A DNA stretch of 64,000 bases, taken from positions 1 to 64,000 of the forward strand of contig NZ_SAIQ01000003.1 in assembly GCF_004118155.1 (NCBI RefSeq), read 5' to 3'. Under the pieces are notes generated by a model. The model worked only from the letters and a program-made list of their open reading frames with translations, was not told where the DNA came from and searched no databases. Below, piece after piece: positions 6,027-50,495 of this stretch. The stretch is from Edaphocola flava. Lineage in GTDB: Bacteria; Bacteroidota; Bacteroidia; Chitinophagales; Chitinophagaceae. Within the stretch, counting starts at the first letter, position 1, and each line of letters opens with the position of its first letter. The position numbers and the translations under genes are program-made.

Positions 6027-6033
6027 CCCTACA

Positions 6034-6122
6034 AAAGGAAATGGTGTGCTTCCTTACCCAACCGCTTGCAAAAGCTGATGACGCCTGATTATATATCAAT
6101 ATTTACCTTATAATCAGGATTG
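6034..6122 (+). promoter_or_regulatory. Fluoride riboswitch (crcB motif) with translational expression platform
   Basis: The leader folds as the fluoride aptamer. Helix P1 pairs AAGGAA (6035-6040) with TTCCTT (6050-6055). The loop GGTGT (6043-6047) can form the pseudoknot with ACGCC (6081-6085). Helix GCTT/AAGC (6064-6067, 6072-6075) is capped by a GCAA tetraloop and followed by the conserved UGAUG (6076-6080). Order and motifs match the known Thermotoga petrophila aptamer. Directly overlapping the pseudoknot strand is a perfect 10-bp hairpin (6084-6093 with 6109-6118) whose 3' arm holds the AGGA upstream of the ATG at 6125. Fluoride binding should prevent this hairpin and turn translation on. 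Fold inferred by eye. Confidence 0.86.
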
Positions 6123-10161: not shown

Positions 10162-10185
10162 ATAATACGCAATTAATAATCGCTA

Positions 10186-10244
10186 ACTGAGTATCCGCTT
10201 AAAGGAAACAAAGTCTAGTATTATATTTTAGGCATTCTATTTAT
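10186..10244 (+). repeat. MITE-like repeat, copy 1, left part
   Basis: Begins with the family's left end ACTGAGTATCCGC and runs to CTATTTAT, where the IS1595-family transposon inserted. The sequence continues at 14464 after the duplicated CTATTTAT, as comparison with the intact copy at 30546 shows. Confidence 0.88.
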
Positions 10245-10267
10245 GGCATTAATATACGACTTTACAC
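10245..10267 (+). repeat. Left terminal inverted repeat of the IS1595-type transposon
   Basis: GGCATTAATATACGAC and the following bases match the right end in inverse orientation at about 18 of 23 positions. It abuts the CTATTTAT target duplication. Confidence 0.88.
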
Positions 10268-10319
10268 TTAAGTCTCTTTGTTGTTAATTAATTTTGTTAT
10301 TTTCGGATTAAAAATCCTT

Positions 10320-10511
10320 ATGGCTAAGTTTATTAAAGTTACCTCTATATCTGGTTTGACTGAATACAATTTAAATGTAGAATATATTGTATTTTACTAT
10401 CCTTTAATTCAGTCAAAAACTACATCAATTTTACTTTCTACAGGTAGAGATTTAGAAGTATCCGATAATATATCTGAATTTGAAGCAAAACTTAATGCTG
10501 TCTCATTGTGA
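10320..10511 (+). CDS. Small FlbD-like hypothetical protein (transposon cargo)
   Basis: A 63-residue protein beginning MAKFIKVTSIS; the ATG at 10320 is preferred to an upstream in-frame ATG that would add an unrelated hydrophobic leader. The pattern (IKVT...YNLNVEYIV, a STGRDLEV strand, ISEFEAKL helix) resembles small FlbD-like and phage/ICE proteins that turn 'local sequence + threshold' into a compact beta sheet. That likeness is weak and no function is claimed. It is the first cargo gene after the left transposon end. Confidence 0.5.
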   Translation: MAKFIKVTSISGLTEYNLNVEYIVFYYPLIQSKTTSILLSTGRDLEVSDNISEFEAKLNAVSL

Positions 10512-10641
10512 ATTTTCTAACTTTCCAAAAAGGAATTCCTAGAAAATACCATATTGTAATAGTGTTTTGATCACTATATACAGATCCGTCATATGGTACA
10601 TGTATAATTTTCTTAGTAATCATAATTTTTTAAGTTTAAGT

Positions 10642-10670
10642 AGGTAGTCATTTGACTACCTTATTTTTTT
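10642..10670 (+). terminator. Rho-independent terminator after the small cargo gene
   Basis: AGGTAGTCA (10642-10650) pairs with TGACTACCT (10653-10661) and is followed by a run of T. The 130 bp between the stop codon at 10511 and this hairpin holds nothing recognisable. Confidence 0.72.
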
Positions 10671-10751
10671 CAAATCCTTTACTATACCGTATTTCCGGGT
10701 TTATCAACTTCATGTGCATATCTCGTTAATGATAAATCGCATGTAAAAAAT

Positions 10752-10759
10752 TATCTTTG
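10752..10759 (+). promoter_or_regulatory. Promoter -7 box of leader/attenuator region
   Basis: TATCTTTG fits TAnnTTTG exactly. Transcription would begin near 10765, 11 nt before the leader peptide start. No clear -33 box is seen. Confidence 0.5.
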
Positions 10760-10775
10760 TGTACAAGTTACGAAT

Positions 10776-10820
10776 ATGTTTTTTTGGTTATATAAAGTTG
10801 GTTTCGTATACTTATCTTAG
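10776..10820 (+). CDS. Putative 14-residue leader peptide
   Basis: ATG at 10776 and TAG at 10818-10820 enclose MFFWLYKVGFVYLS, in which six of 14 residues are aromatic. The stop codon touches the first base of the long antiterminator arm (10820-10834). The position between a promoter box and a terminator, plus the unusual composition, suggests a regulatory leader rather than a functional protein. This is inference from layout alone; no ribosome-binding sequence supports the start. Confidence 0.35.
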   Translation: MFFWLYKVGFVYLS

Positions 10821-10970
10821 AGGTTTAAATATTGCTGTAATTGTTAAAAGTTTGCATTTTAATAAATGCAATTGTACATTTGCAAATGCAAATTCATCGC
10901 AGGATTGTTAGATCAAACACTGCTAAAAGATGAACAATATTTAAACCTCAGCGGCAACTGAGGTTTTTTT
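10820..10970 (+). promoter_or_regulatory. Candidate antiterminator/terminator pair or structured RNA
   Basis: GAGGTTTAAATATTG (10820-10834) is perfectly complementary to 10935-10949. The distal arm overlaps the 5' side of a clear terminator, AACCTCAG (10944-10951) with CTGAGGTT (10958-10965) plus seven T. The two folds exclude each other. A further hairpin, TTGCATTT/AAATGCAA (10852-10859, 10864-10871), lies inside. Downstream is the 55-residue zinc-ribbon gene at 11047. It could be an attenuator for that gene or a free small RNA; the sequence alone does not decide. Confidence 0.5.
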
Positions 10971-11046
10971 GTTTTTATACAATAAAGTTTTTGGTCGAAA
11001 CAGAACGTTCCTGAAATTCTGATTATTAAACCCAAAATTTATAGCG

Positions 11047-11214
11047 ATGAATTTGCATCACAAGCCAGAATTTTGTTCCAAATGCAGCAATGCAATGAAA
11101 GAAGTTTTTATCCCTTGGAAAAGAGGTAAAAATGGAGTTAGGATTTATCCAAAAAATTCGAGATACTTCCACTTCTTTGTTTGCGAGAATCCAACCTGCA
11201 AACAGAACAAATAA
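11047..11214 (+). CDS. Small zinc-ribbon protein, 55 residues (transposon cargo)
   Basis: The frame encodes 55 residues with two cysteine pairs: FCSKC near residues 9-13 and VCENPTC near 45-51, spaced as in a small treble-clef or zinc-ribbon fold. A basic stretch (PWKRGKNGVRIYPKNSRY) lies between. Such proteins often bind nucleic acid or act as adaptors. The gene is followed by a strong terminator and preceded by the attenuator-like region. No named family is recognised. It is too short for most automatic gene calls. Confidence 0.62.
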   Translation: MNLHHKPEFCSKCSNAMKEVFIPWKRGKNGVRIYPKNSRYFHFFVCENPTCKQNK

Positions 11215-11236
11215 GAGCTAAAATCTAAGGATTTAT

Positions 11237-11259
11237 GAGGGGTTGCCGCCCCTCTTTTT
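11237..11259 (+). terminator. Rho-independent terminator after the zinc-ribbon gene
   Basis: GAGGGG (11237-11242) pairs with CCCCTC (11249-11254) and is followed by five T. It also separates the gene from the convergent minus-strand gene, whose stop codon is at 11258-11260. Confidence 0.85.
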
Positions 11260-11509
11260 ATTTCTTTGGTTTACCTTTTTTAAAGATACCTACAAGTACA
11301 TCGTCAAAACCAATTAATGGTCTTGCAGGTGCACTCATTTTAATGTTTCTGCTAAGTTTTCTTAAATGGAGTTTTTTGAATTCTTGCCAAGTTTCAGATA
11401 CTTCAAGAATACCTAATAATTTAAGAATCTCTTCATCAGATTTAAATGTCTTGAAGTATTCTTCTTCTCCATTAAGTCGTTTAACTTCTTTTGCTAATCT
11501 CTGATCCAT
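11258..11509 (-). CDS. Small hypothetical protein linked to the transposase
   Basis: An 83-residue basic protein: an N-terminal charged helical part (KEVKRLNGEEEYFKTF) and a C-terminal tail FDDVLVGIFKKGKPKK, which resembles the short 'F..al..ll..p..k' tails found on small proteins that accompany Bacteroidota IS1595 transposases. Its start overlaps the transposase stop by 29 bp, so translation is probably coupled. It may assist or regulate transposition. No function is proven. Confidence 0.6.
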   Translation of the reverse strand: MDQRLAKEVKRLNGEEEYFKTFKSDEEILKLLGILEVSETWQEFKKLHLRKLSRNIKMSAPARPLIGFDDVLVGIFKKGKPKK

Positions 11510-12497
11510 AAACTAAGGTTTGGTAAGTTAATCTCTTACCTGAAATACCTTGTAAAAATAAGTCTATTTTCTCGCTTAAAATACTCATTCTATTGTTAAA
11601 GCGGAAGGATCTCTCATTTAAGTACATTTGCAAGTGCTTTCTAGACACTTTATAATAAACACCTATTATTGATCTTTTTAAGTGACTCCAGTAATTTTCA
11701 ATCCTGTTAGTGGTTATATCTCCATCGGCATATTGTCCTCTACCATGATCAATAAACTCATGTTTATAATGTTTACTTAAACCCGCGTAACCCATCCACT
11801 CATCTGTAAGTAATCTACTTCCTCCTTTTATGTTTTGAAGAATTAACGGTTGTAACGTTTTTACTTTGGTATCTTCTACAACAAAGGTTTTAACTTTAGT
11901 AGGTCTGATAGTCACCTTTTCAATAACATACTCTCCATCTATTACCTTGTGAGGTCTTCTAACTAATTTGTATTCTCCTCTTTTAAGTAAGCCTACTACT
12001 GGTGTTTTATCTTTGAAGGATCTACCTTGAGACTTTTCAACTTTTTTGTCTTTGTGTCGGTTCTTATTTTTGCCTCCTACGAACGATTCGTCTGATTCAA
12101 TCTCTCCATCAAACTCATCATCTTCAGGGTCAATTGCAAATCTTAACCTTGCCAGTATAAACCATGCTGTTTTCTGAGTAACTCCTAATTCGTCTGCTAA
12201 CTGATAAGAAGAAATACCTCTTTTATTAACTATGAAAAGGTATATGGCTACAAACCATGTTCTAAATTCGATTTTAGATCCTTCAAAGATGCTATCTGTT
12301 CTTACTGTAAAATACTTCTTGGTGTTTACACAGCGGTATCTGTTACCTGCACATTTATAGACTTTGGAATCTTCATCGAAAGGAGAAACGATATTTCCGT
12401 TCCATCTCAGCATTTCAAGGTGATCAATACAGCTTTGTTCTGTGGGGAAAGCCTCCAGAAGTTGTTTAACACTCTTGTATGGTTTTACTGAGATCAT
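11481..12497 (-). CDS. IS1595-family (ISXO2-like) transposase
   Basis: The 338-residue enzyme moves the surrounding 4.2-kb element by DDE chemistry. The start MISVKPYKS at 12497 is favoured; longer frames add an unrelated hydrophobic leader. An N-terminal half-zinc-ribbon region (YKCAGNRYRCVNTKKYF) has lost some cysteines, as in many Bacteroidota members. A helix-turn-helix follows (QLADELGVTQKTAWFIL). Catalytic residues are visible as Asp136 in ESDESFVGG, Asp232 in LLTDEWMGY and the NRIENYWSHLKR block (Glu267). It appears intact. The transposase is divergent from the 150-residue cargo gene. Confidence 0.93.
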   Translation of the reverse strand: MISVKPYKSVKQLLEAFPTEQSCIDHLEMLRWNGNIVSPFDEDSKVYKCAGNRYRCVNTKKYFTVRTDSIFEGSKIEFRTWFVAIYLFIVNKRGISSYQLADELGVTQKTAWFILARLRFAIDPEDDEFDGEIESDESFVGGKNKNRHKDKKVEKSQGRSFKDKTPVVGLLKRGEYKLVRRPHKVIDGEYVIEKVTIRPTKVKTFVVEDTKVKTLQPLILQNIKGGSRLLTDEWMGYAGLSKHYKHEFIDHGRGQYADGDITTNRIENYWSHLKRSIIGVYYKVSRKHLQMYLNERSFRFNNRMSILSEKIDLFLQGISGKRLTYQTLVYGSEISKRS

Positions 12498-12560
12498 TAC
12501 AATACAAATATAAGTAGAAAAGTACATTAGAAGTGTAAATAAATACTTAAATTTGTTATT

Positions 12561-13013
12561 ATGATAGAACATTTACAAAAACTAGACTTTGTCCTTGACT
12601 ATTTTAAAAAGAAAAAAGAGTTCAGTGCCACATACAATTATTCATTAATTGAAACATATGTTAAAAGGACTCCAGAAATGAATATCACTACACTTATACT
12701 CAAGGAAATTTTAGAAAAATTGGTATCTGATGGTTATCTAACAAAAACTGAAAAACCTACAGGATTATCTTATTATAATATATCCTTTAAAGGGTTGGTT
12801 TTCGAGGGTTACGTCTTGGTATATACATTATCCCAAAAGGAAATACAAAGAGTGAATATGTTAGAGCAGGAACAAAGGGCTTTGGCTTATTCACAAAATC
12901 AGGTGGCTGAAAAGACAAAAAATCTGACTGTGTGGGTGGCAATTGGGACAATAATTGCGGCTGTTTATTATCTTCTTGAGATTTGGAAGTTCTTTTTTGA
13001 AAAAGATTCCTGA
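12561..13013 (+). CDS. Winged-helix-like protein with C-terminal membrane anchor (cargo)
   Basis: A 150-residue protein. Residues 1-75 look like a winged-helix fold (ETYVKRTPEMNITTLILKEI, then LEKLVSDGYLTKTE and a YNISFKG wing). A short linker coiled coil (LEQEQRALAYSQNQVAEKTK) leads to one C-terminal transmembrane helix (VAIGTIIAAVYYLLEIW). It resembles other membrane-tethered winged-helix proteins of unknown function common in Bacteroidota. It starts 63 bp from the transposase start on the opposite strand, so the two may share an operator region. Function unknown. Confidence 0.62.
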   Translation: MIEHLQKLDFVLDYFKKKKEFSATYNYSLIETYVKRTPEMNITTLILKEILEKLVSDGYLTKTEKPTGLSYYNISFKGLVFEGYVLVYTLSQKEIQRVNMLEQEQRALAYSQNQVAEKTKNLTVWVAIGTIIAAVYYLLEIWKFFFEKDS

Positions 13014-13140
13014 TCACCTTAAACAGTGCATCCCTAAATTTCATAAATTTGTGATTCATTGAAAAATCATTTTGAATTTGAATAAATAAAAGAAAATTTA
13101 CATATAAATACTTGTATCATATCATAGCTGACTACTCTAA

Positions 13141-13297
13141 ACTGCGACCTTAGATAACAAAGCCAATGCAGGATATGACTTAGATACGCCTATAAAGGTG
13201 TAACTCAGTCTTTGCATTGGTTGGATGTCGCAGTCCATGAGTGGTGAAGATACTGGTTACACCTAATTTTTTACAATCACTCATAAAAACTGCGACA
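13141..13297 (+). promoter_or_regulatory. Structured switch-like leader before the cargo lipoprotein
   Basis: A long nested hairpin can form: CTGCGAC 13142-13148 with GTCGCAG 13227-13233, CCAATGCA 13163-13170 with TGCATTGG 13213-13220, GACT 13177-13180 with AGTC 13207-13210, and ACGCC 13186-13190 with GGTGT 13197-13201. A second ACTGCGAC copy at 13289-13296, two bases before the ATG at 13299, can compete for the same partner. AGGTGTAAC (13196-13204) can also pair with GTTACACCT (13256-13264). The segment therefore has alternative folds, one covering the start codon. Upstream of 13141, from the stop codon at 13013, nothing recognisable is present. Confidence 0.48.
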
Positions 13298-13298
13298 A

Positions 13299-13790
13299 AT
13301 GACAAAACTCTTACCCTTAATTCTTCTACTATTCCTATTCTCTTGTCAGAATGGAAACACACAATCTCAAAAGAAACTCTACACTGAAGAAGAACTCCAA
13401 CGAGCGATCCTAAAAGCTAAAGATGAACAACAGAAAGTTGATGAGACAGCCGAAGCGGTTGCATCTGCTGCAAGAGCTACAATGGAACCTACAACAACCA
13501 TAACTCCAGCACCTCAAACCTACTATGTATTTGCAGCATTGGTAGTTTCTTTTGGTATAGGGGAAGAAAACTATCAGGTTTTGACAACTGAAATAATTGA
13601 ACGCACCCATAAACCCACTAGAGACGAAGAATATAAGATTCTTGATGACTTAACAAGTTCTCCTGATGTTCAAGCCAATAGTAGAGTTTATAAAAACTTC
13701 AAAACTCATAAACGTAAAGTCTATTCATTTAATTCATATGCAGACGCTAGTGAAAAACGTCAAGAAGTATTATCTAAAGGAATTCAATAA
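13299..13790 (+). CDS. Hypothetical lipoprotein (transposon cargo)
   Basis: A 163-residue protein with a 15-residue hydrophobic signal and lipobox LFSC at Cys16, so it should be anchored in the envelope. A charged helical stretch (EEELQRAILKAKDEQQKVDE) and a Thr/Pro-rich linker precede a C-terminal globular part. That part resembles the short alpha/beta pattern of small phage/ICE exclusion-type proteins, but no homologue can be named. It lies 25 bp upstream of the 102-residue gene. The start codon sits two bases after a possible RNA-pairing site. Confidence 0.58.
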   Translation: MTKLLPLILLLFLFSCQNGNTQSQKKLYTEEELQRAILKAKDEQQKVDETAEAVASAARATMEPTTTITPAPQTYYVFAALVVSFGIGEENYQVLTTEIIERTHKPTRDEEYKILDDLTSSPDVQANSRVYKNFKTHKRKVYSFNSYADASEKRQEVLSKGIQ

Positions 13791-13815
13791 ATTTAACCTT
13801 TAAAACCACTATAAA

Positions 13816-14124
13816 ATGGATCAAAACTTAAACCATGAGGTACTGAAAGTACTAGAAGATAATGGTATATTCCGTGCGAATAAGCCTGTAATGGGTGGAT
13901 ACATTATTTCATTTAAAGATAACCTGATAAACGTAACTGTAGGCCCTAACATCTACAAATATCAAATATCTGAGTTATTAGATTCAGATGAATACATAAA
14001 TATCATTCCAAAAGACCCTACTTTCACAAAGAATATTAAAGTTGAGATTGAATATCTAAAACCTGTTTACATAAGACGGGATTCATCAATGCTTCACATA
14101 GATGGTTATATTATTCTGAAGTAA
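13816..14124 (+). CDS. Hypothetical protein, 102 residues (transposon cargo)
   Basis: A soluble-looking protein with alternating beta-like segments (GGYIISFKDNLINVTV, KVEIEYLKPVYI) and no signal, membrane segment or known motif. It follows the lipoprotein gene by 25 bp on the same strand and probably shares its transcript. Its end overlaps the convergent small gene by 14 bp. Function unknown. Confidence 0.5.
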   Translation: MDQNLNHEVLKVLEDNGIFRANKPVMGGYIISFKDNLINVTVGPNIYKYQISELLDSDEYINIIPKDPTFTKNIKVEIEYLKPVYIRRDSSMLHIDGYIILK

Positions 14125-14362
14125 AAGGTAGAAATCCAGAATCTCTAAAATTCGTCACCCCTATTCTTAGTAGGTTTTCATAAAATTTTATAGAATTATT
14201 GACACTATCCCTGAAAGGCTTCATTCCTGGACTATCATTATTATCTATCTCATTTAATGATAAAATGAGTAAATCGTAGGGATGATTTTTATTGTAGTTC
14301 TCTAAAAGTTCTACAATTTGTGTTGCTACCTTATAGGCTTCTTGAATGGAATCCTTATTCAC
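14111..14362 (-). CDS. Hypothetical protein, about 83 residues (transposon cargo)
   Basis: The frame extends back to a GTG at 14386 that sits inside a terminator hairpin. The GTG at 14360-14362 is preferred because an AAGGAGG sequence (14368-14374) lies 5 nt upstream, an unusually strong Shine-Dalgarno for this phylum. The 83-residue product is helical and acidic (SIQEAYKVATQIVELLENYNKN), ending LPFTSE. It overlaps the convergent 102-residue gene by 14 bp. No family recognised; it might be non-coding. Confidence 0.42.
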   Translation of the reverse strand: MNKDSIQEAYKVATQIVELLENYNKNHPYDLLILSLNEIDNNDSPGMKPFRDSVNNSIKFYENLLRIGVTNFRDSGFLPFTSE

Positions 14363-14377
14363 AACAACCTCCTTTCC

Positions 14378-14402
14378 AAAGACCACTTATTGTGGTCTTT
14401 TT
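14378..14402. terminator. Bidirectional hairpin near the transposon right end
   Basis: AAAGACCAC (14378-14386) and GTGGTCTTT (14392-14400) form a perfect 9-bp stem with A and T flanks, so it could stop transcription from either side, including read-through out of the element. Confidence 0.7.
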
Positions 14403-14440
14403 GTTTTTGTTCACAAAATTTTTGAAAAGAATTGGCTCTG

Positions 14441-14463
14441 ATGTAAGATTGTATATTAGTGCC
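14441..14463 (-). repeat. Right terminal inverted repeat of the IS1595-type transposon
   Basis: Read inward from 14463 it begins GGCACTAATATACAAT and matches the left end at 18 of 23 positions. The CTATTTAT duplicate follows at 14464-14471. Confidence 0.88.
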
Positions 14464-14892
14464 CTATTTATATCTATTGGTACCTTTTGCCTTGATGCAA
14501 AAGGGTACCGCCAAAAAATCAAGGCTGTATACATCCCTGGCTAAAAATCAATGTGTCGGTCGGTCGCAAACGCAGACTCGCTGCGCTCAGACAGTGGTTT
14601 ACGACTTTATCGACCGAGCCAATGATTTTTGTAACGCCGGATTTATAAGGACATTCTAAGCGATCTGTTCTGTACGGATCGCTTATTGTTTTCATCACAG
14701 CGATAGCCATTTTGGTTGGAGCTGCGGATCGTTGAGCACCCAACGCATCACACGTTAAGCTCAGACGATCAAGGCACGCAACGGTACAAAATGGCGGTGC
14801 TATGCAATCGCCTTGATGAAATATCATTTTTGCACCTTTTGTTGCCGGACAAAAGGACGAATAAAATAGTTGCCTACATGCGGATAGTCAGT
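14464..14892 (+). repeat. MITE-like repeat, copy 1, right part
   Basis: Continuation of the repeat interrupted at 10244, starting with the duplicated CTATTTAT and ending at the right inverted end GCGGATAGTCAGT. Internal dyads include a TACCTTTTG/CAAAAGGGTA-type hairpin and a CCTTTTG/CAAAAGG hairpin near the right end. No matching target duplication remains (AATCGCTA on the left, AAATTTTA on the right). The 155 bp from 14893 to the Crp gene contain nothing else evident. Confidence 0.88.
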
Positions 14893-30537: not shown

Positions 30538-30545
30538 TATTATTA

Positions 30546-31060
30546 ACTGAGTATGCGCTTAAAGGAAACAAAGATTAGCATTATGATTTAGGCATTCTAT
30601 TTATATCTATTGGTACCTTTTGCCTTGATGCAAAAGGTACCGCCAAAAAATCAAGGCTGTATAAATCCATGGCTAAAAATCAATGTGTCGGTCGGTCGCA
30701 AACCAGACTCACTGCGTTCAGACAGTGGTTTGCAACTCTATCGACCGAGCCAATGATTTTATGAACGCCGGATTTATAAGGCCATTTCGAGCGATCTGTA
30801 CAGTACGGATCGCTTATTGTTTTCTAAGCTAGCGCACGCGCCCTCGCGTGTGCCGGTTTGGGAACGCGCGCCAGAGAAGAGCTTCAGCAACCGAAAGTTT
30901 CGTACCCTGAGGTCCTCGAAGGGTAAGCTCAGACGATCAATGCACGCAACGGTACAAAATGGCGGTGCCTTGCAATCGCCTTGATGAAATATCATTTTTG
31001 CACCTTTTGTTGCCGGACAATAGGACAAACAAGATAGTTTACTATATACGGATAGTCAGT
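30546..31060 (+). repeat. MITE-like repeat, copy 2 (intact, with target duplication)
   Basis: The 515-bp element has left end ACTGAGTATGCGC and right end CGGATAGTCAGT (inverse ACTGACTATCCG), flanked by the perfect 8-bp direct repeat TATTATTA (30538-30545 and 31061-31068). Internal dyads include a 12-bp stem GGTACCTTTTGC/GCAAAAGGTACC (30612-30641) and a second complex hairpin in the right half. No transposase is encoded. A stretch near 30830-30920 differs from the other copies (an extra GC-rich segment). Confidence 0.93.
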
Positions 31061-31147
31061 TATTATTACTATCTGAACAAAGGATATTTTCAATTCTGAC
31101 ACTTTAGCCCTAACTTTGCCTTTCTCAGGCATTGCATTAACTCGGGT

Positions 31148-39395: not shown

Positions 39396-39404
39396 ATGTA
39401 ATTA

Positions 39405-39700
39405 ACGGAGCATCCGCTTAAAGGAAACAAAGCCTAACGTTATGTTTTAGGTATGCTAATTATATCTATTGTTACCTTTTGCCTTGATGCAAAAGATAAC
39501 GCCAAAAAATCAAGGCTGTATAAATCCCTGGCTAAAAATCAAGGTGGTCGGTCGGTCGCAAACCAAACTCACTTCGTTCAGACAATGGTTTCCGACTGAA
39601 TCGACCGAGCCAATGATTTTCTTGACGCCGGATTTATAAGGCCATCATAAGCGATCTGTTCTGTACGGATCACTTGCCTGTTTCATCATAGCAAAGCAAT
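39405..39700 (+). repeat. MITE-like repeat, copy 3 (right half missing)
   Basis: Starts with the left end ACGGAGCATCCGC and follows the family through the large left dyad and the GCGATCTGT...ACGGATC palindrome, then diverges near 39700. The right end is absent, probably by deletion next to the dinB gene. Confidence 0.82.
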
Positions 39701-39741
39701 TTTTGCCATTTCGATGCCCTTTAGTGATTTTATCAGTACAC

Positions 39742-48099: not shown

Positions 48100-48127
48100 G
48101 TACATTATAGAAATTCATTTTTTTTAC

Positions 48128-48594
48128 ACTGAGTATACGTTTAAAAGAAACAAAGTCTAGCATTATGCTTAGAAATTCTTTTTATATCTATTGCTACCTT
48201 TTGCCTTGATGCAAAAGGTACCGCCAAAAAATCAAGGCTGTATAAATCCCTGGCTAAAAATCAAGGTGTCGGTCGGTCGCAAACCAGACTCACTTCGCTC
48301 AGACAGTGGTTTCCGAATTATCGACCGAGCCAATGATTTTCTTGACGCCGGATTTATAAGGCCATTCTAAGCGATCTGTACTTGTACGGATCGCTTATTG
48401 TTTTCATCACAGCGATAGCCATTTTGGAGTGGAGCAGCGAACGCATCACACGTTAAGCTCAGACGATCAATGCACGCAACGGTACAAAATGGCGGTGCAC
48501 CGCAATCGCCTTGATGAAAACAAAGGCATTTTTGGTCCTTTTGTTGCCGGACAAAAGGACGAACAAAATAGGCTACTACATGCAAATAGTCATA
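48128..48594 (+). repeat. MITE-like repeat, copy 4
   Basis: Nearly full-length: left end ACTGAGTATACGT, right end ATAGTCATA (slightly altered). The flanks TTTTTTAC (48120-48127) and TTTTTTAT (48595-48602) agree at 7 of 8 positions, consistent with a decayed target duplication. Strong dyads occur in both halves, e.g. GTCCTTTTG/CAAAAGGAC near 48537-48560. No protein is encoded, although spurious frames occur. Confidence 0.9.
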
Positions 48595-50185: not shown

Positions 50186-50220
50186 TAAAGGAGCCCTAGA
50201 CAGATCTCCCTTATTATTAT

Positions 50221-50495
50221 ACAGACTATCTGCATGTAGTAACTTCTCTGTCCTTTTGTCCGGCAACAAAAGGACCAAAAATGCCTTTGTTTTCATCAAG
50301 GCGATTGCGGGGCACCGCCATTTTATACCGTTGCGTGCATTGATCGTCTGAGCTTAACATGTGATCCGTTCGGTGCTCAACGATCGCAGCTCCACTCCAA
50401 AATGGCTATCGCTGTGATGAAAACAAGTAAGCGATCTGTACAGTATAGATCGCTCAAAATGGCGTTAAAAAATCATATCGTGAGCGACAATTAAA
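50221..50495 (-). repeat. MITE-like repeat, copy 5 (inverted, left half deleted)
   Basis: On the minus strand this reads as the right half of the family, ending at ACAGACTATCTGC. It includes the GTCCTTTTG/CAAAAGGAC-type hairpin and the GCGATCTGT palindrome. Beyond the GCGTTAAAAAATCAT remnant the left half is gone. It lies between the broken VOC gene and surE. Confidence 0.82.

Follow-up and report, generated by a model that had tools for sequence, protein, structure and literature searches.

The genome of Edaphocola flava (assembly GCF_004118155.1) carries two nested mobile elements at positions 10186–14892 of the 64,000-nucleotide stretch that we analysed (contig NZ_SAIQ01000003.1, positions 1–64,000; hereafter the window). 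A repeat resembling a miniature inverted-repeat transposable element (MITE) has been interrupted by an IS1595-family transposon, and this transposon is one of a number of related IS1595-type cargo elements that share the transposase and a structured leader RNA of approximately 190 nt placed before an exchangeable cargo gene. The structure of the locus, the ends and duplications, the empty site and the relatives described below were directly observed. Taken as a whole, a history of two successive insertions, the second of which brought in a leader RNA that would act as a two-state switch, is in our judgement quite probable. A preliminary description of the locus recognized the nesting; it missed the cargo-bearing nature of the transposon and the conserved structured RNA inside it, of which the RNA is the more interesting part.

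The borders could be read directly. The left part of the MITE-like repeat (10186–10244, forward strand), with the terminal repeat ACTGAGTATCCGC, closes with the 8-bp sequence CTATTTAT (10237–10244). This sequence is found again, unchanged, at 14464–14471, where the right part of the repeat resumes (14464–14892, forward strand; terminal repeat GCGGATAGTCAGT). The transposon lies between the two parts (10245–14463) and thus interrupts a repeat of approximately 480 bp; its size is 4,219 bp, and it is single-copy in the genome. Its termini read GGCATTAATATACGAC.. and GGCACTAATATACAAT.., and the inverted ends (GGCATTAATATACGACTTTA / GGCACTAATATACAATCTTA) are identical at 16 of 20 bases. The left terminal inverted repeat, GGCATTAATATACGACTTTACA, occupies 10245–10266 on the forward strand, and the right one, 14442–14463 on the reverse strand, is identical over its 22 bp to both ends of a related transposon (L033). 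All of these values, from the start, interruption, resumption and right end of the repeat to the insert size, the inverted ends and the exact target duplication, agree with the preliminary description.

A scan of GTDB genomes yielded two close relatives of the transposon, one in a Taibaiella metagenome-assembled genome (L033) and the other in Bacteroidetes bacterium 43-16 (L034), which are identical to the elements in the congeners G004 and G003, respectively. Taibaiella is a member of Chitinophagaceae. Both relatives have the same ends, as the preliminary description had expected of relatives, and each is flanked by an 8-bp duplication of its own (TAATTTTT and TTATTTTA). When the ends and duplication were scored together, all of 50 shuffled loci fell short of the real loci, which excludes a chance origin of these features. 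Because the window comes from a 15-contig assembly, in which repeats like the MITE can cause misjoins, we also considered whether an assembly join or a recombination chimera, rather than transposition, accounts for the interruption. However, the inverted ends and the exact duplication at the borders, the relatives sharing the ends with their own duplications and the collinearity of the outer flanks with the congener G001 all argue against this explanation, which we regard as extremely unlikely.

In G001, the flanking sequences are 93–94% identical to those of the window, and the sequence corresponding to window position 10181 directly abuts that corresponding to 14897; the site is empty of both elements. 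Because G001 carries neither at this site, both insertions are recent on this branch. Insertion of the MITE first and of the transposon second, the order given in the preliminary description, is the only one consistent with the nesting. In the proposed course of events, a MITE-like element of approximately 480 bp, one of dozens in a Taibaiella-like genome, would have entered an AT-rich intergenic site. Later, the 4,219-bp transposon with its passenger genes would have inserted into the MITE at CTATTTAT, following the usual DDE mechanism, in which the transposase would bind the GGC-type inverted ends, strand transfer would be staggered by 8 bp, and gap repair would duplicate the target. The target duplication of the MITE itself is eroded at this locus and not assignable (AATCGCTA versus AAATTTTA, with a TTTATCTT-like sequence in G001); it was probably lost through decay.

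The assignment of the transposon to the IS1595 family rests on several features. The transposase, previously described as ISXO2-like, matched the Pfam family DDE_Tnp_IS1595 (PF12762; E = 2.8e-41, 141.5 bits against a cut-off of 27) and the NCBIfam family transpos_IS1595 (NF033547; 190 bits against a cut-off of 75). Published traits of the family include 8-bp duplications, GG ends and the existence of passenger-bearing members, called tIS (PMC8101967, PMC12561309, PMC5704250). In the element of the window, the inverted ends start with GG (GGCATTAATATAC / GGCACTAATATAC) and the 8-bp duplication CTATTTAT is exact, as it is in 12 of the 13 elements of the transposon group described below. For the N-terminal zinc ribbon present in all IS1595 groups but IS1016, the match stayed below the cut-off (PF12760, E = 0.035). 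Gene content restricted to the transposase is the norm in the family, without being universal; because extra open reading frames (ORFs) are present here, we classify the element as a tIS with passenger genes, a type of exception already known in the family.

The conserved structured leader RNA spans 13113–13301 on the forward strand and reaches the start codon of a predicted lipoprotein gene. It lies in the non-coding stretch between the ORFs at 12561–13013 and 13299–13790, which is 81% identical to that of L033; the similarity ends at about the start codon. Within the leader, the strand R1 (13132–13148, CTACTCTAAACTGCGAC) forms the 5′ side of the outer helix, and R2 (13278–13296) is a near-copy of R1 that abuts the start codon at 13299. 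Between them, aR (13227–13244) can pair with either R1 or R2. A second set of strands repeats this arrangement: aX (13197–13204) can pair with X1 (13185–13190) or with its repeat X2 (13256–13263), and X2 is followed by a terminator-like T-rich run that extends to 13274. All of these strands lie on the forward strand.

The R1, aR and R2 strands vary together across five leader sequences, from which the first covariance model was built. Among 149 related genomes, 12 contained full-length matches to this model, 18 in all. A second model, applied to 398 genomes of the order Chitinophagales, gave 25 matches in 20 of them, overlapping the first set; the two models together identified 36 distinct leader RNA loci. 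The main fold (P0-P1-P2-P3) keeps 97.4% of pair cells in the 18-sequence alignment, although these sequences were the best matches to a model containing this fold and the alignment, being fitted to it, favours it. In the same alignment, 79 compensatory cells were found versus 19.3 in shuffles, with compensatory change in 16 of the 24 pairs, and sliding the partner strands reduced pairing to 27–45% of cells. The alternative pairing (aR:R2 and aX:X2), which is absent from the covariance model used for the alignment, is kept in 84% of cells and shows 32 compensatory cells versus 13.8 in shuffles. No match to the window leader at E ≤ 5, nor to eight further loci at E ≤ 0.5, was found in Rfam 15. 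Searches for literature tying IS1595 to leader RNAs or riboswitches returned nothing relevant by title and abstract, with many subscription papers lying outside the search.

The leader RNA is associated with cargo transposons. An IS1595 transposase gene is located within 5 kb of 12 of the 18 RNAs of the first set, whereas approximately 0.1 such neighbours would be expected by chance according to our own arithmetic (26 IS1595 transposase genes in approximately 49 Mb across the 12 genomes). Both an IS1595 transposase and the leader RNA are contained in thirteen elements of 2.9–4.7 kb, each with GG-type inverted ends and an 8-bp duplication as its borders; the duplication is exact in 12 of them and has a mismatch in one. 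In 12 of these 13 elements, the cargo ORF begins at the last bases of the RNA. Similarly, a start codon is found no more than 10 nt from the RNA end in 16 of the 18 first-found loci, and the genes that follow are mostly unrelated. The cargo of the bounded transposons includes predicted lipoproteins and membrane proteins; elsewhere, the leader precedes genes for a SGNH-like hydrolase and an acyltransferase-like protein (both by inspection), a LytTR protein (L147) and, directly, an AIPR/AbiU-like gene encoding an abortive-infection-type protein (L144, G010:C155). A second IS1595 cargo transposon, diverged from that of the window, is present in the E. flava genome itself (L153, G000:C1:974585-978042); it also carries the leader RNA and is flanked by the exact duplication TAAAATTT. 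Two weaker and closely similar relatives of the leader, G000:C10:283876-284082 (L171/L177) and G001:C3:255850-256058 (L132/L152), are located 4–7 kb from an IS1595-type transposase and have no cargo start codon at the RNA end.

The recurrence of the leader in related elements before unrelated genes suggests a portable on/off switch for transposon cargo, and from the sequence we read the leader as a putative cis-acting expression switch, which would be transcribed together with the cargo, forming the 5′ end of its mRNA, and would adopt two states. In the ON state, the pairs R1:aR and X1:aX would form, so that R2 and the start codon stay accessible for expression. In the OFF state, aR would pair with R2 beside the start codon and prevent expression, and aX may pair with X2 just ahead of the terminator-like run. 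The two folds are near in predicted energy, with a median difference of 2.5 kcal/mol in pseudoknot-free, single-sequence predictions for 23 sequences. For the RNA of the window, the full-length form is predicted to prefer aR:R2, and the form without R2 is predicted to prefer R1:aR together with X1:aX. These modelled energies and preferences would suit a leader that decides cargo expression during or after transcription.

In addition to the bias of the alignment, several points weigh against the proposed switch. Compared with the main fold, the alternative pairing is the weaker one (84% against 97% of cells kept, and 68% in its outer part), and it is partly a by-product of the likeness of R2 to R1. 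Single-sequence folds favour R1:aR in 17 of the 23 sequences and aR:R2 in 6, and the transcription of the leader is something that we infer from the sequence. Furthermore, no IS1595 transposase is located within 5 kb of approximately one-third of the strong RNAs. Three RNAs of this subset adjoin primase/helicase-type genes, namely DUF6371 genes at L144, L146 and L150 (the latter two in G031), with a D5_N-type gene in addition at L144. The leader RNA is therefore not exclusive to these transposons, and the neighbourhoods of L144, L146 and L150 probably represent another kind of mobile island that uses the same leader.

Two other explanations of the conserved sequence were weighed against the switch. 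First, in three weaker, distant relatives the match is confined to model positions 20 to 162–180 and ends near the T-rich run, and the next gene begins 5–76 nt beyond the match. This would fit a free-standing small RNA that ends at the T-rich run and acts in trans, its position before the cargo being incidental. However, in most strong members R2 carries the sequence past the T-rich run precisely up to the start codon, and we consider such a small RNA unlikely. Second, the conserved sequence may act as single-stranded DNA or as protein-binding sites, such as an origin of transfer or a recombination site for cargo swapping, rather than as an mRNA leader. The repeats R1 and R2 with the inverted aR would likewise be compatible with a multi-site DNA target. 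Furthermore, IS1595-type cargo elements include at least one that is mobilizable, MTnSag1 (PMC5704250), and the homology between the transposons of the window and L033 stops at the start codon, as it would at a point of cargo exchange. On the other hand, the independent compensatory changes in P2 and P3 are unexpected for binding sites, the leader shares the strand of the cargo and in most cases extends up to the start codon, and a T-rich run follows X2 in nearly all leaders. Among the selected ORFs that were searched in the 13 transposons, no relaxase or recombinase gene was noticed. A DNA site seems a slightly poorer candidate still, and we prefer the two-state leader switch to both.

Compared with L033 and L034, the transposase (85–86% identity) and the small ORF downstream of it (58–62%) are conserved, whereas the right-hand cargo differs. 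The transposase gene occupies 11481–12497 on the reverse strand, its start (MISVKP) being placed by homology, and the conserved 83-aa ORF (11258–11509, reverse strand) lies just downstream of it and overlaps it. Near the left end, a 63-aa ORF (MAKFIKVTS..; 10320–10511, forward strand) has a relative at the equivalent position of L034 (40% identity), and L033, L142 and L153 have small ORFs that resemble it in length and start. On the other side of the transposase gene, the forward strand carries a 150-aa ORF (12561–13013) whose product, by inspection, has an N-terminal winged helix-turn-helix-like part and a C-terminal membrane segment, and which has no confident family. The cargo gene following the leader encodes the 163-aa predicted lipoprotein (13299–13790, forward strand), with a relative (45% identity) in L034 only; a second cargo ORF (102 aa, no family) is located at 13816–14124 on the forward strand. 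Searches of the cargo against Pfam, NCBIfam and PADLOC gave nothing convincing. The only other match to the transposon in its own genome is a 116-bp piece of a diverged transposase (C1:977040). In addition, a stem of approximately 20 bp that closes a loop of approximately 100 nt and is followed by a terminator-like T-run is located inside the transposon (10820–10970, forward strand); this hairpin could be a small RNA.

The interrupted repeat belongs to a real MITE-like family. It has terminal inverted repeats (ACTGAGTATCCGC / ACTGACTATCCGC) and many copies and lacks a long conserved ORF. A whole-genome search, in which the best 40 of 109 first-look candidates were scored, detected at least 45 pieces, and the left end matched 53 times with no more than three mismatches. 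Forty-four copies are bounded by ends (96–655 bp); most are 474–484 bp long, and some are shortened by internal deletions to as little as 96 bp. Exact duplications of at least 8 bp flank 21 of these 44 copies, versus 0.8 by random pairing of right flanks, and duplications with no more than one mismatch flank 30, versus 5.6. A target duplication of constant length is therefore a property of the family, despite its erosion at this locus. Dozens of copies are present in G001, more diverged copies in G002 and mostly fragments in G003 and G004. Among the end matches and fetched regions, a search that was not exhaustive, no autonomous parent sharing the ends was seen.

The preliminary description had proposed an alignment of the rejoined halves with the copy at 30546. 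The two do align, in two blocks (92% over 283 bp and 88% over 154 bp) rather than without a break. That copy (30543–31063) has unrelated sequence in place of the central segment; other copies in the genome align end to end and are better references. Further copies or fragments are located at 39402–39703, 48126–48593 and 50220–50471, which, with the copies at 30543 and 64649, gives at least four other copies in or just past the window. Genome-wide, the copies look like mosaics of a few variant blocks, which suggests recombination or gene conversion among them. A core of approximately 65 bp (GGTACCTTTTGCCTTGATGCAAAAGGTACC, MITE positions ~74–138) recurs in several other genera of the family and may be an older, independent repeat element. 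We also considered the MITE as a constrained RNA. Its consensus fold is strong and extensive, but compensatory change was found in only 4 of 111 pairs, which does not support this idea, and Rfam scans at gathering and relaxed thresholds gave no match; the stem-loops may simply be MITE structure.

The nested insertion is an ordinary, clean textbook case, and the MITE and the IS1595 tIS are known kinds of element. Bacterial MITEs such as QMITE2 of Coxiella (PMC10969869) are likewise short, non-coding and multicopy, with inverted ends, 7–9-bp duplications and AT-rich intergenic sites, whereas the MITE described here is larger (mostly 474–484 bp), has other ends and has no autonomous parent that we found. 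ISApl4 (IS1595 family, IS1016 group) shares the GG ends and AT-rich 8-bp target duplications (PMC12561309), but it is 712 bp long and encodes only a transposase, without passenger genes. Among the closest parallels are tIS elements such as MTnSag1/tISSag10 and tISCpe8, which have an IS1595 transposase, inverted ends, 8-bp duplications and passenger genes (PMC5704250, PMC8101967). The present elements differ in being found in Chitinophagales, in carrying mostly small secreted or membrane proteins, and in having a conserved structured leader RNA before the cargo gene, of which no description was found in the literature searched or in Rfam. As a conserved component of these transposons, the leader RNA therefore appears to be new. 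It resembles attenuators and riboswitch-type leaders in that one strand has two mutually exclusive partners, the downstream one lying beside the start codon or the T-rich run; it differs from them in being carried by mobile elements before unrelated genes, with no known ligand or Rfam match. Elsewhere in the window, a fluoride riboswitch is present at 6028–6094 on the forward strand (Rfam RF01734, 48.5 bits).

We see about an even chance that the leader represents a new class of structured regulatory RNAs, carried along by a group of IS1595-type cargo transposons and by some other mobile islands of Chitinophagales as a plug-in switch before exchangeable cargo, perhaps silencing the cargo until the appearance of a cellular signal such as stress or phage attack. 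Although the cargo genes are unrelated, a conserved folded RNA precedes them in transposons of one family. If the proposed switch is real, it illustrates how a mobile element can supply the control of any gene that it happens to carry, and the leader RNA would provide a sequence tag for finding such cargo, for example the abortive-infection-type protein in one of the islands.

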